From a bacterium (GTDB taxonomy: Bacteria > Auribacterota > UBA3054), in the NCBI GenBank assembly GCA_017963805.1, contig JAGCTE010000040.1:1-64000 (forward strand): a DNA stretch of 64,000 nt. Direction: 5' to 3'. This document shows positions 20,914 through 31,436 of the stretch, in pieces. Made by a program: the position numbers and the translations under genes. How positions within the stretch are numbered: position 1 is the stretch's first letter; the number at the start of each line of letters is the position of its first letter. The notes beneath the pieces are model-generated. The model was not told the DNA's origin. It did not search any database and saw nothing but the letters and a program-made list of their open reading frames with translations.

Positions 20914-22371
20914 ATGAGAACTAAGATCGAGAAACTTTTCTATCTTCTCAGGTTGGCGGCTGACATTGTCATCGTGCATATCGCTTTCTACTTCGGCTAC
21001 CACACCTACATGGGGTTCGGCTTCTCGAACAAATATCTCGCCGAGAACATGCGCAGCACGGTCTATTACCTGCCTGACAAGGACCATCTCTACCTGACGC
21101 TCGCGATAGTCTTTTCCTTCATACTGGTCGGCTACAACGTGCTGCGCAAGTATTACCGCGGCGACAACAGCATATTGAACGTCAAGGAATACCAGCACAT
21201 CATATCTTCCTACGTTTTCGCCGCGCTTTTCACCTGCGCCTTCTATTTCCTCTATTACATCTATCTGCACAGCATGGAGCGCAGCTTCACCGACAAGCTG
21301 TTTTCCCGCCGCATCTTCTGCTATTCCTTCACCTACGCTTTCATAATGGTCGTCTGTTTCCGCGCGACCATGAACTGGCTGATCAGCAAGATGCACAAGA
21401 GGGGCATCTTCGTAAGGAACTGCCTTATACTGGGCGCCGGAAACAACGGGAAAATGGTGGCCCGCCGCCTCATGCGCCACACCGCCCACCATTACCTTCC
21501 CCTCTGCTATCTTGACGACTACATTCCCAAGGGCACGGAGATCGAAGTCGAGAAGAACGGCTTCAAACTGAAAGTCGAAGGGACCGTTGAGGATCTTGAG
21601 CGCCTTATCAAGGAGCTTGACATCACCTCCGTCTTCTTCTGCATGAGCGAAGCGCCGGCCGAGAAGATCTTTTCCGTAATGGATCTCTGCTACAACCTTA
21701 ACGTGCCTTTCTATTTCACGCCGAGGCTGTACACCATTCCGCAAGTGATAAGGGGCTACGAGATAGCCGGTATTTTCGTGCTCAGCATCATCCACGACTT
21801 CAGGGTCTCCTGGTACTACAATTTCGTAAAGAGAGCCTTCGACATCACGCTTTCACTTCTGCTTCTGATCCCGGGCATCCCCGTAATGCTGCTTGCCGCC
21901 ATAGCCATAAAGCTTGACAGCAAAGGGCCGGTCCTCTTCTCCCAGGAGCGCGTGGGATTAGACGGCAGGAAGTTCATCATGTACAAATTCCGCTCCATGA
22001 AGACGGAAGCGAGTGGCTCGGAGCTTAAGCCCCAAAGCGGCCGGGATCCCAGGATAACAAGAGTCGGCCACTTCCTCAGGCTGACGAGCCTCGACGAGCT
22101 TCCCCAGATCCTGAACGTGCTGAAGGGCGACATGTCTTTCGTCGGCCCTAGGCCCGAGATGACGTTCATCGTCGAAACTTACGACAAGTGGCAGCAGCTA
22201 AGGCTGAAAGTTAAGCCGGGCATCACCGGCCTCTGGCAGATCAGCGCGGAGCGCAATCTTCCCATCCACGAGAACCTCGACTACGACATGTATTACCTTC
22301 AGGAGCGCTCGCTGCTCCTCGACGTGGTCATCATCTTCAAGACCTTCTTCTTCATCGCCCGCGGTATCTGA
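20914..22371 (+). CDS. Polyprenyl glycosylphosphotransferase (WbaP/WcaJ type)
   Basis: 485-residue initiating enzyme of exopolysaccharide or O-antigen synthesis; it moves a sugar-1-phosphate to undecaprenyl phosphate at the inner membrane. The N-terminal part has about four or five helices, the middle a CoA-binding-like Rossmann domain (NCLILGAGNNGKMVARRL), and the C-terminal bacterial sugar transferase domain (about 300-485) has a membrane segment then GPVLFSQERVGLDGR, FRSMKTEA and SLDELPQILNVLKGDMSFVGPRP. The sugar is not predictable. The next gene overlaps its stop by one base. Confidence 0.93.
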   Translation: MRTKIEKLFYLLRLAADIVIVHIAFYFGYHTYMGFGFSNKYLAENMRSTVYYLPDKDHLYLTLAIVFSFILVGYNVLRKYYRGDNSILNVKEYQHIISSYVFAALFTCAFYFLYYIYLHSMERSFTDKLFSRRIFCYSFTYAFIMVVCFRATMNWLISKMHKRGIFVRNCLILGAGNNGKMVARRLMRHTAHHYLPLCYLDDYIPKGTEIEVEKNGFKLKVEGTVEDLERLIKELDITSVFFCMSEAPAEKIFSVMDLCYNLNVPFYFTPRLYTIPQVIRGYEIAGIFVLSIIHDFRVSWYYNFVKRAFDITLSLLLLIPGIPVMLLAAIAIKLDSKGPVLFSQERVGLDGRKFIMYKFRSMKTEASGSELKPQSGRDPRITRVGHFLRLTSLDELPQILNVLKGDMSFVGPRPEMTFIVETYDKWQQLRLKVKPGITGLWQISAERNLPIHENLDYDMYYLQERSLLLDVVIIFKTFFFIARGI

Positions 22372-24737
22372 TGCTTCAAAAACTGAGAAAAATTTCGGCC
22401 GCGGCGCTTTTCATTATCTCTTTCTGCGCGATCTGGCCGGCGGCCTTCGAATTGGCGCCGCTTGACCCGGCGTACTGTTTCGCGTACGCCATTCTGCTTT
22501 TTTTCGTTTTTGCCGCGGCTTATTACGTTCCAAAAAAGGCGCTCTATATACTCGCTTTCATTCTGCCGTTTTCAGCCGCTCCCAGCAGACTGCTCAACAT
22601 CGGCGCCCATCAGCCGATAGTCTTCTTCGCGCTGATCTTCTCCCTCGGTTACTGGGCCAACAGGCTCGTTACGGGAAAAACTTCCAACGTCGACAAATGT
22701 TTCAAGCTTCCGCTGCTTCTTTTGTTCATGGTCGGAATTTCCTCGGCTGCTTGGACTGTGGCGCGCTACGAAGGGCTGTTCACCAGTTTCAAAACGCCGT
22801 TCTTTTATGACCGCGTGATCAATACGGACGGCAGGACCGCTTCCGAAGCGGCCAGGATAACGCTCTTCTACTGTTTCCTCTTTCTGATGTTCCCGGCGCT
22901 TATCTGGACCGTCTCCTCCATTTTCTCTGAACTGAAGGAGAAGGGGGAAAGGGAAAACTATCTCAAGAAGATCCTCTACGCTTTCACCGCCGGGCTCTGG
23001 CCCGTTCTCGCGCTGGCAAATCTTCAGCACAGGGGCTCGTTTCTTCCCAAGGCTTTTTTGGACGACAGCTGGCTGGAGGCCGGCAGGGTCTCAGGTGGCA
23101 TGTCGGACCCTAACGCGCTCGGCCTTACGATAGCCCTGTACATCCCGATCGCCCTTTACTTCGTCTGGACCGGAAAGATCCTTGACAAGATCGTTTTTGG
23201 AGCGACTGTCTTGGTTTCCTTCGCGGTCATGACCTATTCCGGTTCGCGCTCGTCGCTGCTCTTCCTTTTTGCGTTCTGCCTCTTTTTCCTTGCCGCGCAA
23301 TCCGTAAGGTACGTGAAAAACCATAAGCCCACTCTGATTCAGATCTTAGGATTCGCCGGCATACTGCTTCTCCTTTTGGTTTTTCTTGTCACCACGCCCA
23401 AGCTGAAGCTCGACCCCCATTCCAAGAATCCCGCGATAGCTCGCATAGCGAGACAATTCCGCCGCCTCGATCACGAGCAGGGCGTGACCATTACCGACCG
23501 CCGCGAACTCCAATGGAAGCAGGCCTGGCGGATCTGGAAGGAATACCCCGTGGGAGGCGTGGGCTTGGGAGCCTTTCCTTTGGAAGTCGTAAACTACAAC
23601 AGGGAAGCCGGCGACGAAACGCCCATGGACAATCCCTGGAACCAGTATCTGACCTGGGGAGCCGAGCTGGGCTTCGTCGGCATAGCGGTCTTCGCCTGGT
23701 TTATTTTCCTGCTTTTCAAAAAGGCTTTCGAGAGCGAGAAGGACAGGAAGTTCCTGCTTCTGTCCTCCGTTCTTCTGTCTTTCATGGTGATCTCGTTTTT
23801 CGGAGCGCATCTCAACGCGCCGGAAGCCGCCGCCGCGACAGCCCTGGTCCTCGCTGTCTTCATCTCCGGCCTTAAGGAAGGCAACAGCGAACCGTTGCGT
23901 TTCAGAACGCTGCTTTTTTCCTTCTTCCTGCTCGCCGTTTTCAACGCCGCCTACGCTTACGGAGTCTTCGGGAAATTGGGCGGCGAGGAGCGCCGCCAAA
24001 GGTTCGACCTTCCGAGCGACTTCGGCTTCTACAACAAGGAGCGCTGGATGGGCAACGCCTTCACGTTCAGGTGGAGCGCGCCAAAAGGCGGCATGCTCAT
24101 AGAGGTCCCGGAAACCAACCGCGTCATCAAGCTGAGGATCGCCGCCGTAAGGGAGGAGCCGGTCACCGTCACCTTCTGGTATGACGGCGAATTTCTTGAC
24201 ACCATAAACTTAACGGATCCGAGCTGGCGGGAGATCAAGCTCAACATCTTCCCCTGGCTCAAGGAAAGATCGCTGCTTTGCTTTGCCGTAAACAAACCCT
24301 GGAAACCGGAAGGGGAGAGCCGCAATTTGGGCATAGCTGTCGCGACGGACTACGAATTCACGGACGAATTCTTTAGGCAGGCCCAGGGCGCCATCGGCGT
24401 GGAAGACACAAGATTCGGCAGAGTAGTGGTCATCAACCGGGGTTTTTCCTGGCAGCCCTCTCTGCCCAGCACCAAAGCGCGCCTCGATTTCGAGATGCCG
24501 CTTGCCAAACCGCTCGAGCCGAAGACTCAGGAATACACTCTCTACCTGGGCCGAAACGTGCTCCATGAATTCACGCTTCCCTTCGACGGGCAATCCCACA
24601 CGCTGGAAGTCGATCTGCCGGAAGGCGACCGCGAGGCCCTCTCTCTCAGGGCGAAAAAACTTCTGCCTTACAGGATCCAGAACCAGAAGGAAGTCAGCAA
24701 GGTCGGCGCCCGCGTCAGGGCCATAGGAGATTTCTGA
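22371..24737 (+). CDS. O-antigen ligase/Wzy-like polysaccharide membrane protein
   Basis: 788-residue protein with about 12 hydrophobic segments in the first 520 residues and a soluble C-terminal region (about 540-788). The large loop carries a Wzy_C-like stretch: TDRRELQWKQAWRIWKEYP, GVGLGAFPLEVVNYN, then PMDNPWNQYLTWGAELGFVG. Such proteins polymerise or ligate lipid-linked glycans on the periplasmic side. The C-terminal domain is mostly beta by pattern and not recognised. Pairing with the initiating transferase points to one glycan pathway. Confidence 0.75.
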   Translation: MLQKLRKISAAALFIISFCAIWPAAFELAPLDPAYCFAYAILLFFVFAAAYYVPKKALYILAFILPFSAAPSRLLNIGAHQPIVFFALIFSLGYWANRLVTGKTSNVDKCFKLPLLLLFMVGISSAAWTVARYEGLFTSFKTPFFYDRVINTDGRTASEAARITLFYCFLFLMFPALIWTVSSIFSELKEKGERENYLKKILYAFTAGLWPVLALANLQHRGSFLPKAFLDDSWLEAGRVSGGMSDPNALGLTIALYIPIALYFVWTGKILDKIVFGATVLVSFAVMTYSGSRSSLLFLFAFCLFFLAAQSVRYVKNHKPTLIQILGFAGILLLLLVFLVTTPKLKLDPHSKNPAIARIARQFRRLDHEQGVTITDRRELQWKQAWRIWKEYPVGGVGLGAFPLEVVNYNREAGDETPMDNPWNQYLTWGAELGFVGIAVFAWFIFLLFKKAFESEKDRKFLLLSSVLLSFMVISFFGAHLNAPEAAAATALVLAVFISGLKEGNSEPLRFRTLLFSFFLLAVFNAAYAYGVFGKLGGEERRQRFDLPSDFGFYNKERWMGNAFTFRWSAPKGGMLIEVPETNRVIKLRIAAVREEPVTVTFWYDGEFLDTINLTDPSWREIKLNIFPWLKERSLLCFAVNKPWKPEGESRNLGIAVATDYEFTDEFFRQAQGAIGVEDTRFGRVVVINRGFSWQPSLPSTKARLDFEMPLAKPLEPKTQEYTLYLGRNVLHEFTLPFDGQSHTLEVDLPEGDREALSLRAKKLLPYRIQNQKEVSKVGARVRAIGDF

Positions 24738-25570
24738 TGCTGTATATCGTAGCGACGCCTTTAGGCAACCTTGAAGACCTCACTCCCAGAGCCCTCAGGA
24801 TCTTCCGGGAAGTTGACGCCATCGCGGCCGAGGACACCCGTCACACGATCCAGCTCCTGAGCCACTTCAACATCTCAAAGCCGCTTTTCGCTTTCCATCA
24901 GCACAACGAGCGCGAAGCGACGGAACAGCTGGTAGAAAAGCTGACGAGGGGAGAGAACATCGCCCTCGTCTCCGACGCCGGCTACCCCTGCGTTTCCGAC
25001 GCCGGAAGCTACCTTACGCAGACTCTCCGCGACAGGAACATTCCCTACACCTGCCTGCCGGGCGCCTGCGCAGTGGACCTTGCCCTCGTCCTTTCCGGGC
25101 TGCCGACCGAGACCTACGCCTTCCTGGGCTTCCTTCCCAGAGAGGGCAAGGAAAGGGAACGCGCCTTCGCGAAGATCGCCAAAAGCGAAGATACTGTTGT
25201 GGTTTATGAAAGTCCTTTGAGGATCATCAAACTCATAAAAGACCTCAAACCTTATATAAAGGAAAGAAGGATCGCCCTCGTGAGGGAAATGACCAAGATC
25301 CATGAGGAATGCGTCAGAGGCTTGGCGGAAGAAGTCATAACGGAACTTGAAGCGAGAGCGGAAGTGAAAGGGGAGTGCGTTCTCGTTATAGAAGGCAGGA
25401 AAGAAGAAGTCCAGGAGCAGACCGGAAACATAGAAGACGCCGTCAGAAAAGTTCTTCTTCTGAAAAAGAAGGCCGATCTTTCGCTTTCCCAGGCCGCCCA
25501 GGCGGTCTCCCTCATAACAGGGCACAACAGAAAAGAGCTCTACAAACTGGCGCTTGAGCAGGAAGAATGA
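24737..25570 (+). CDS. rsmI: 16S rRNA 2'-O-methyltransferase RsmI
   Basis: 277-residue SAM enzyme that methylates the ribose of C1402 in 16S rRNA. It begins LYIVATPLGNLEDLTPRAL, followed by VDAIAAEDTRHTIQLL and ALVSDAGYPCVSDAG, the family signatures. A short helical C-terminal extension ends KKADLSLSQAAQAVSLITG. Overlaps of one base with the gene before and four bases (ATGA) with the one after indicate tight coupling. Confidence 0.95.
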   Translation: MLYIVATPLGNLEDLTPRALRIFREVDAIAAEDTRHTIQLLSHFNISKPLFAFHQHNEREATEQLVEKLTRGENIALVSDAGYPCVSDAGSYLTQTLRDRNIPYTCLPGACAVDLALVLSGLPTETYAFLGFLPREGKERERAFAKIAKSEDTVVVYESPLRIIKLIKDLKPYIKERRIALVREMTKIHEECVRGLAEEVITELEARAEVKGECVLVIEGRKEEVQEQTGNIEDAVRKVLLLKKKADLSLSQAAQAVSLITGHNRKELYKLALEQEE

Positions 25571-26745
25571 CCGAAGAGACGATCATAGAAAACGACAGGC
25601 TCTTCCAAAGCGAAATCGGCACCGTCGTAAAAATAACTTCCGACGGCAAAGCGATAGTCCGCCTCTCCCGCACCAAGGCCTGCGAATTCTGCGGACAGTG
25701 CTCCGTCTCCAAAGAGGACGGCATGATGGAACTCGCCGCCGATATCCCGGAAGGCGAATCTCTTTGCCTAAACGACAAAGTCAGGATCGAAAAAAAGCCC
25801 AAAGTCCAAACGAGGGCGATCCTGCTTCTTCTCATCCTGCCCCTTTTGGGCCTGCTTCTAGGTTCTGGCATAGGACATCTCGTCTTTTCCCCGAAAGAGC
25901 CCCTTGTAGCCCTCACGGCGCTTCTTGGCCTGATCCTGGCTTTCATCATCTCCACCGTACTGATAAGAATGAAAAAATGGCACCGAGGCGCCGGCCTCAC
26001 GGTTAAAAAACTTTTTAGCCTGATCTTGCTCTCCGCTTTGATCCTGTGTTCTTGCAAAAGAGCTCCCGCCGTTCAACCCTCAAGAGCCGAGTCGGACGCG
26101 GAGTACAAAAATCCCATGCCGGTTTCCCCGGATGAAGAGTTCATGAACCAAAAGCAGATCTTCTGCGAATACCTTCCCGTTCCGGACAGCGTGCTGGATA
26201 GAATGAAAGGCAAATCTTTTCCTGACGATTGTGAGATAGACAGAAGAGAATTGGCATACTTGAAGGTAAAATATTACGGTTTTGACGGAGAGGTCCACAT
26301 CGGCGAATTGGTGCTTCACAGAAAAGCGGCTGACAAAGTGGCCTGGATATTCGTTTCCCTTTTTCAAAGCCAATACCGGATAGAGAAGATCAAGCTCATA
26401 GACGATTACGACGCCAGCGACGAGGCCTCCATGACTGACAACAACACGAGCGCTTTCTGCTACAGGACCATAGCCGGCAGGAAGAAACTCTCAAAGCACG
26501 CCCTGGGGCTCGCCATCGACATCAACCCCCTCTACAACCCCTGCGTCACCTACAACGAGGACGGCTCCATTAAAAAGGTTGAGCCCGAAGCGGGCAGGCC
26601 GTATATTGAAAGGGACGCTTCCGATCCCAGGCGCATCACCAAAGACAGCGAGATCTACAAGCTCTTCATAGAAAACGGTTTCAAATGGGGCGGCGACTGG
26701 GGGAACCCCAAGGACTACCAGCACTTCGAGTATAAGCAGGAATAG
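25567..26745 (+). CDS. Fusion of an RseC/MucC-like membrane domain with an M15 peptidase lipoprotein
   Basis: 392 residues with two unrelated parts. Residues 1-138 look like RseC: a small N-terminal domain with the cysteine cluster CEFCGQC (39-45) and two helices (about 84-106 and 113-133). A second signal-like stretch then follows (KKLFSLILLSALILCSC, 148-163) with a lipobox LCSC at Cys163. The rest is a DD-carboxypeptidase of the M15/VanY type with zinc ligands His311 and Asp318 (SKHALGLAIDINP) and His386 (YQHFEY). Met135 (base 25969) could be an internal start giving a free lipoprotein. RseC acts in sigma-E/SoxR signalling in proteobacteria; M15 enzymes trim peptidoglycan. The start overlaps rsmI by four bases. 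Confidence 0.8.
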   Translation: MTEETIIENDRLFQSEIGTVVKITSDGKAIVRLSRTKACEFCGQCSVSKEDGMMELAADIPEGESLCLNDKVRIEKKPKVQTRAILLLLILPLLGLLLGSGIGHLVFSPKEPLVALTALLGLILAFIISTVLIRMKKWHRGAGLTVKKLFSLILLSALILCSCKRAPAVQPSRAESDAEYKNPMPVSPDEEFMNQKQIFCEYLPVPDSVLDRMKGKSFPDDCEIDRRELAYLKVKYYGFDGEVHIGELVLHRKAADKVAWIFVSLFQSQYRIEKIKLIDDYDASDEASMTDNNTSAFCYRTIAGRKKLSKHALGLAIDINPLYNPCVTYNEDGSIKKVEPEAGRPYIERDASDPRRITKDSEIYKLFIENGFKWGGDWGNPKDYQHFEYKQE

Positions 26746-30485: not shown

Positions 30486-31436
30486 ATGGAAAAGGCTCCG
30501 AAAAAGAAAAGACGCAGCTTCATGAGCAGGCACCCCCGTATCCGCTCGGTCGTTTACGGGATCTACGCGCTTCTGTTCGCGCTCATAGGTATACTTCTCT
30601 TCCCCTTGGGTCTTATTCCCAGGAGGTGGACTTACAAGCTTGGGCGCTTTGTCGGGCTTCATGTCACGTATTACGCGATCAGGCGGAAATGTTTTTTGAA
30701 TCTTTTCTACGCTTACGAAGACCGGATGAACGCTAAGCGCGCCGAATATCTGACGAAGAAGATAGCTGTCAACCTTACCTACAGTTTCCTCGACTGCTTC
30801 TATCTCTGGATGTTCAAGTGGCGCTACAGGAAATACGACCCGGTGGAGGAGTGGAGCGACTGGGGGATCGTCAGCAAGAGCATGGAAGCGGGGCACGGCG
30901 TAGTGGTCGCCACGGCCCACTATCACTGCTTCGAAGTGATGCCGGTGCACTTCTGCTACACGCGCCAGGGTTTCGACGGGGGCGTGATAGCGCGCACTTT
31001 CCCCTCGCCTTTGGCGGTCAAGCTTTACACCTGGCTGAGGAAGCGCTACAACATCCTCTCTTTTTACAACGACGCGAAAAGCATAATAAGGACTCTTAAG
31101 CGAGGGCGCGTGGTGGGAGTTTTGCCGGATCTTTACGCCAAGAGGAAATACAAAGTCCCGACGACTTTCTACGGAAAGCCTACGACGACTTTCGACATTC
31201 ACTTCAGGGTGGCGGCCCTTTGCGACTGCCCGGTCGTGCCGGCATTTTTGATGCGCAAGAAAAGCTGCCCCTGGAAATACGGGCTGATGTTCTACGATCC
31301 CATTTATCTTTCGAAAAAGCCCAGCGAGGAGGAAGTCGACGCGAAGGTCCAGCAGCTTTCCTACGTTTTCGAATACCACATGCGCCGCTTCCCGACAGGC
31401 TGGATCTGGTTCCACAACAAATGGCGGATTTTCTAA
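30486..31436 (+). CDS. LpxL/HtrB-type lysophospholipid acyltransferase
   Basis: 316-residue membrane-associated acyltransferase, probably a lipid A late acyltransferase homologue. An N-terminal anchor (about 18-42) is followed by the HX4E catalytic motif in ATAHYHCFEVMP (about 145-152) and downstream VGVLPDLYAKRKYKVPTTFYGKP, which resembles the LpxL substrate block. The end has GWIWFHNKWR, typical of the family. It directly follows the nuclease (one-codon gap), and its presence supports a lipid A-bearing outer membrane. Confidence 0.85.
   Translation: MEKAPKKKRRSFMSRHPRIRSVVYGIYALLFALIGILLFPLGLIPRRWTYKLGRFVGLHVTYYAIRRKCFLNLFYAYEDRMNAKRAEYLTKKIAVNLTYSFLDCFYLWMFKWRYRKYDPVEEWSDWGIVSKSMEAGHGVVVATAHYHCFEVMPVHFCYTRQGFDGGVIARTFPSPLAVKLYTWLRKRYNILSFYNDAKSIIRTLKRGRVVGVLPDLYAKRKYKVPTTFYGKPTTTFDIHFRVAALCDCPVVPAFLMRKKSCPWKYGLMFYDPIYLSKKPSEEEVDAKVQQLSYVFEYHMRRFPTGWIWFHNKWRIF

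Follow-up and report, generated by a model that had tools for sequence, protein, structure and literature searches.

The fused gene and its modules

In the window, a stretch of 64,000 nucleotides of bacterial DNA, positions 25567 to 26745 form one uninterrupted open frame with an ATG start (the features of this gene and rsmI are all on the + strand) which encodes a protein of 392 amino acids. Pfam profile searches of this protein detected RseC_MucC at residues 24 to 132 (55.8 bits versus a gathering cutoff of 24.4) and Peptidase_M15_4 (PF13539) at residues 304 to 389 (79.9 bits versus a cutoff of 25), confirming the claim of a preliminary description that an RseC domain and an M15 peptidase share one frame. 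The RseC module, delimited by the Pfam match and an alignment of the junction, comprises residues 1 to 149 (25567 to 26013) and ends in KKL, the point at which split relatives carry a stop codon. Present within this module are a cluster of cysteines, Cys39-Cys42-Cys45 (CX2CX2C; 25681 to 25701), and two TM helices (residues 78 to 107 and 111 to 135; 25798 to 25971) predicted from an AlphaFold2 model and hydropathy. The module is followed by an internal signal segment ending in a lipobox (residues 150 to 163, with LCSC ending at Cys163; 26014 to 26055), recognized from the sequence and the AlphaFold2 model, then by a linker found to be hypervariable when five fused proteins were compared (residues 164 to 204; 26056 to 26178) and, finally, by the Peptidase_M15_4 domain (26476 to 26733), in which His311, Asp318, and His386 are located. 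AlphaFold2 modeled residues 146 to 162 as a third helix after the two TM helices, with linker residues 165 to 181 being of low confidence. The three cysteines, the LCSC motif, and the His/Asp/His residues all occupy the positions assigned to them in the preliminary description, and the lipoprotein-type signal is, as it had claimed, internal rather than N-terminal.

The upstream operon neighbor, rsmI (24737 to 25570), overlaps the fused gene by 4 nt (ATGA) and is itself preceded by an O-antigen-ligase-family gene, while an isopropylmalate-dehydrogenase-type gene and a semialdehyde dehydrogenase gene are located downstream of the fused gene. In genome G001 (L034), no match to the leuB or asd gene of the window was detected in the DNA around the fused gene, indicating that the downstream neighborhood differs. 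A lipid A acyltransferase family gene is present at 30486 to 31436 of the window and suggests a diderm envelope.

The cysteine spacing of the RseC half was CX2CX2C throughout the genus and in two other loci of the same phylum (L018 and L112) and was CX2CX5C in L015 and E. coli. Both termini of E. coli RseC are cytoplasmic, as determined with PhoA/LacZ fusions (PMC11729352), and autotrophy of C. ljungdahlii requires rseC, acting via RNF (PMC9124969). As the available portions of these papers tie RseC to SoxR reduction and RNF, the label of envelope stress initially attached to this half was too specific. RnfC was found above the cutoff in six of the eight genomes of the genus in a profile search.

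The peptidase residues His311, Asp318, and His386, which we take to be the zinc ligands of M15 peptidases, were also kept in the M15 rows of the alignment used as input for the fold (alignment A1; 34 chosen rows of 112 loci, with L102 omitted for a stop). The only PDB sequence matches were to the endolysins Ply500 (2vo9) and LysB4 (6akv) and involved ∼21 to 28 residues at the C terminus. Structural matches obtained with VIA-align were weak (Z scores of 5.9 for Ply500 2vo9 and 5.4 for VanY 5hnm), with unrelated rows scoring alike and the M15 part being little probed, and a Foldseek search against the PDB detected no match at an E value of ≤0.001. Relatives of up to ∼54% identity, matching the peptidase half alone, were observed in records from gut Prevotella and Lachnospiraceae and have in common with it a ∼100-residue extension before the M15 domain. 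Partial M15 similarity was detected in 4 of 50,697 phage records, none of which covered 80% of the query, and a pattern search of viral contigs was without a match. The sequence of the M15 half is consistent with a putative peptidoglycan peptidase.

Fused and split states within the genus

A search for both modules in one chain found the fused gene in five of eight genomes of the genus, including that of the window (G000, G001, G003, G004, and G007), and hence supported the fusion envisaged in the preliminary description; the other three genomes (G002, G005, and G006) had two separate genes. The four other fused proteins exhibited 61 to 94% identity to the query, and the matching records were ruminant-gut contigs designated 'Bacterium isolate RGIG...'. 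Each of the eight genomes (83 to 93% complete) had a single RseC_MucC match and a single Peptidase_M15_4 match, with no second, unfused copy of either part. As the fused gene is the sole source of both matches in the five fused genomes, both functions probably rest on this gene. No fusion was detected beyond the genus, each non-genus match among 44 phylum genomes covering one half; in G008, from the same order, the RseC and M15 parts were on separate contigs. Long open frames in G028 and G035 were considered as fusions and rejected, the added length being upstream of the RseC match and apparently noncoding.

In the split genomes, RseC ends with LTLKKL and a TGA stop that shares bases with the start codon of the peptidase gene (ATGA), the two genes being in different frames. 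The split peptidase gene opens with a signal peptide, and in G002 and G006 this signal terminates in a lipobox-like motif. The peptidase of split G005 (L037, 3438 to 4181) has a signal-like start but, unlike G002 and G006, no lipobox, indicating that lipidation is not universal for this M15 peptidase. Relative to split G002, the fused genomes are short by a net 8 nt spanning the TGA stop and the ATG start. The resulting junction, Leu149-Phe150 (26011 to 26016), is identical in all five fused genomes. This alignment shows that the fused frame is explained by a net 8-nt deletion in which the TGA and the ATG were lost. We infer that the split state is ancestral because split genomes are present in both rpoB clades (see below) and because the loss of a few bases is a simpler event than the restoration of both codons, each in its own frame. 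Small deletions fusing neighboring operon genes are a known kind of event. Larger deletions, between distant genes, are treated in a preprint from 2026 about fusions that arise by deletion (PMC12803068).

An artifact of assembly or sequencing, in which a frameshift error joined two separate genes, was also considered, as separate genes are indeed carried by three genomes of the genus and all of the genomes are drafts. The same junction was, however, present in five genomes, four of which were also read as records from different animal samples (L031 to L034), and the fused proteins have diverged by up to 39%; we regard this explanation as practically impossible. The preliminary description had foreseen that relatives might have separate genes and that the fusion might be a sequencing error. 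The former is the case in three of the eight genomes, while the latter fails because five of the eight congeneric genomes share the fusion.

A second alternative, also put forward in the preliminary description, is that ATG 25969 (Met135; 25969 to 25971) is the start of a separate, nested M15 lipoprotein gene whose product is made in addition to the fused product or in its place. Met135 is present in four of the five fused genomes and is followed by signal-like residues. This residue is located, however, within the C-terminal tail of RseC, with KKWHRGAGLTxKKL coming next, and the position is variable: G001, although fused, has Ile here, and the three split genomes, in which this stretch is plain RseC tail, have I, R, and K. 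Furthermore, G001 has no in-frame ATG, GTG, or TTG across the 60 codons preceding the lipobox Cys. The genus comparison thus identifies Met135 as a residue of the RseC tail rather than a conserved start. The region upstream of ATG 25969 was also without Shine-Dalgarno-like pairing (+0.6 kcal/mol versus -5.3 kcal/mol for the RseC start); position 20914 of the window, likewise assumed to be a gene start, also scored +0.6 kcal/mol. A nested start was rejected as a general explanation and is, in our estimation, very improbable, with a minor internal product in G000 being possible.

Exchange of alleles by recombination

The rpoB tree separated G000, G001, G002, G003, and G004 from G005, G006, and G007, such that fused G007 was among split genomes, and a clade of fused genomes was rejected by rpoB (p-AU, 6.85e-50). 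The same two groups were apparent from the identities of LspA, Lgt, and the O-antigen-ligase-family protein, where these sequences were available. The M15 tree placed all five fused rows to the same side of a branch within the genus (modest support, 88/64), and a single clade of fused rows was not rejected (p-AU, 0.157). This tree omitted 35 of 82 loci, whose peptidase had not been located by the motif used, and contained one untrustworthy row, L009, with a branch of 4.15.

The DNA identity between G003 and G000, both of which are fused, was 80 to 91% across rseC and 96 to 99% from ∼25924 onward, while that between G003 and split G006 was 86 to 93% across rseC and went down to 35% at the junction. 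The rsmI-rseC-M15 stretch (24737 to 26745; L031 to L037) is a mosaic between species with a step in identity at the 3′ end of rseC. The conflict between rpoB and M15 is explained by these steps in DNA identity. The comparisons show, at the level of DNA, that recombination at the 3′ end of rseC has carried the peptidase half, and with it the fused or split state, from one species to another. One or two deletion events may have occurred; if the two groups of fused alleles represent separate deletions, then the lipobox has been kept for a shorter time than assumed.

The internal signal and its possible processing

Conservation of the signal segment was assessed by alignment of the five fused proteins, with segments taken from residue 12 onward. 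Invariant positions amounted to 9 of 14 in the signal segment versus 4 of 41 in the linker (residues 164 to 204). L160, S162, C163, and K164 were invariant in all five proteins, with lipobox positions -3, -1, and +1 unchanged, and the lipobox was LCSC in three fused genomes and LSSC in two. The linker behind the lipobox was of two very different types among these proteins. Relative to the lipobox consensus given in the available part of one source, Leu-Ala/Ser-Gly/Ala-Cys (PMC9360617), LCSC fits at Leu -3 and Cys +1 and departs at Cys -2 and Ser -1. Profile searches detected Lgt and LspA in all eight genomes of the genus. A second, weaker LGT-family match (∼60 bits) was present beside the main Lgt in six of the eight (L139 to L142).

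We propose that rseC, encoding an inner-membrane protein of the RNF/SoxR-reducer kind with the N terminus inside, two TM helices, and the C-terminal tail inside, became joined to the gene for an M15 lipoprotein. As the C terminus of E. coli RseC is cytoplasmic according to the portion of the report available (PMC11729352), the peptidase would need one more membrane passage. The AlphaFold2 model and hydropathy suggest that this passage could be supplied by helix 146-162, located behind a basic KKWHRGAGLTVKK loop, and the former N-terminal lipoprotein signal would then have become an internal third membrane segment passing the peptidase to the periplasm. Lgt would acylate Cys163 and LspA would cut before this residue, such that two products would come from one chain, an RseC bearing a third helix and an M15 lipoprotein in the periplasm, a situation close to that preceding the fusion. 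Lipidation and cleavage at Cys163 are suggested because the lipobox was kept in the five fused proteins and because Lgt and LspA are encoded in all eight genomes; we put the chances of these two steps at about even or a little better.

The main rival explanation, which we consider unlikely, is that the chain is left uncut and functions as an inner-membrane protein with three TM helices, a cytoplasmic RseC Cys cluster, and an anchored periplasmic M15 domain, an arrangement that might link wall cutting to redox state. The single frame in five of the eight genomes is consistent with such a tether, as are the departure of LCSC from an ideal lipobox and the potential of helix 146-162, as modeled, to serve as a plain TM anchor. 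A mere anchor, however, would not need the conservation of lipobox positions -3, -1, and +1 in all five proteins beside a linker that keeps 4 of its 41 positions constant, and the presence of both LspA and Lgt in every genome of the genus also argues against an uncut chain.

Our preferred reading, that of a genuine in-frame fusion of operon genes which was spread by recombination and whose internal signal exports the peptidase, with LspA presumably cutting the chain, is on the whole probable, albeit with considerable doubt. A further proposition, on which we are evenly divided, is that the fusion separates itself, one frame producing a redox-type protein of the inner membrane together with a lipoprotein of the periplasm through cutting by signal peptidase II at the internal lipobox; a chance fusion would thereby be neutralized, and the fused allele could spread among species by recombination.

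The presence of both states within one genus, with the deletion resolved to the base, means that a gene fusion has been caught in the act. The locus also poses the question of whether a lipobox that follows two transmembrane helices can serve as a substrate for LspA. If it can, operon neighbors could fuse and yet keep separate products. Annotation that seeks lipoprotein signals at N termini only would miss such a protein. In a literature search covering a minority of subscription journals, no report was found of a fusion of RseC with an M15 peptidase or of a membrane protein in which an internal lipobox is used.

Like members of the RseC_MucC family, including the RseC proteins of E. coli and C. 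ljungdahlii, the fused protein has an N-terminal domain rich in cysteines and a pair of predicted TM helices, but it differs in having CX2CX2C rather than the usual CX2CX5C spacing, as given in the accessible text of PMC11729352, and in extending past the usual C terminus of this family with a signal and a peptidase domain. The Pfam match and the His/Asp/His residues are shared with M15 peptidases (PF13539), such as the L-Ala-D-Glu endolysins Ply500 and LysB4 and also VanY, whereas the N-terminal extension of ∼100 residues before the Pfam domain and the placement behind RseC are differences. Bacterial lipoproteins that are substrates of Lgt and LspA have, like the fused protein, a basic stretch, a hydrophobic stretch, and a lipobox-like end, here at Cys163; their signal is usually N-terminal, whereas this one is at residues 150 to 163 of a membrane protein. 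The FbcH polyprotein (cytochrome b/c1), a heme protein, is cut by signal peptidase I at an internal signal. In both FbcH and the fused protein, a polytopic membrane protein is joined to an exported domain through an internal signal, but while FbcH uses signal peptidase I, the fused protein, with its lipobox, would use LspA.
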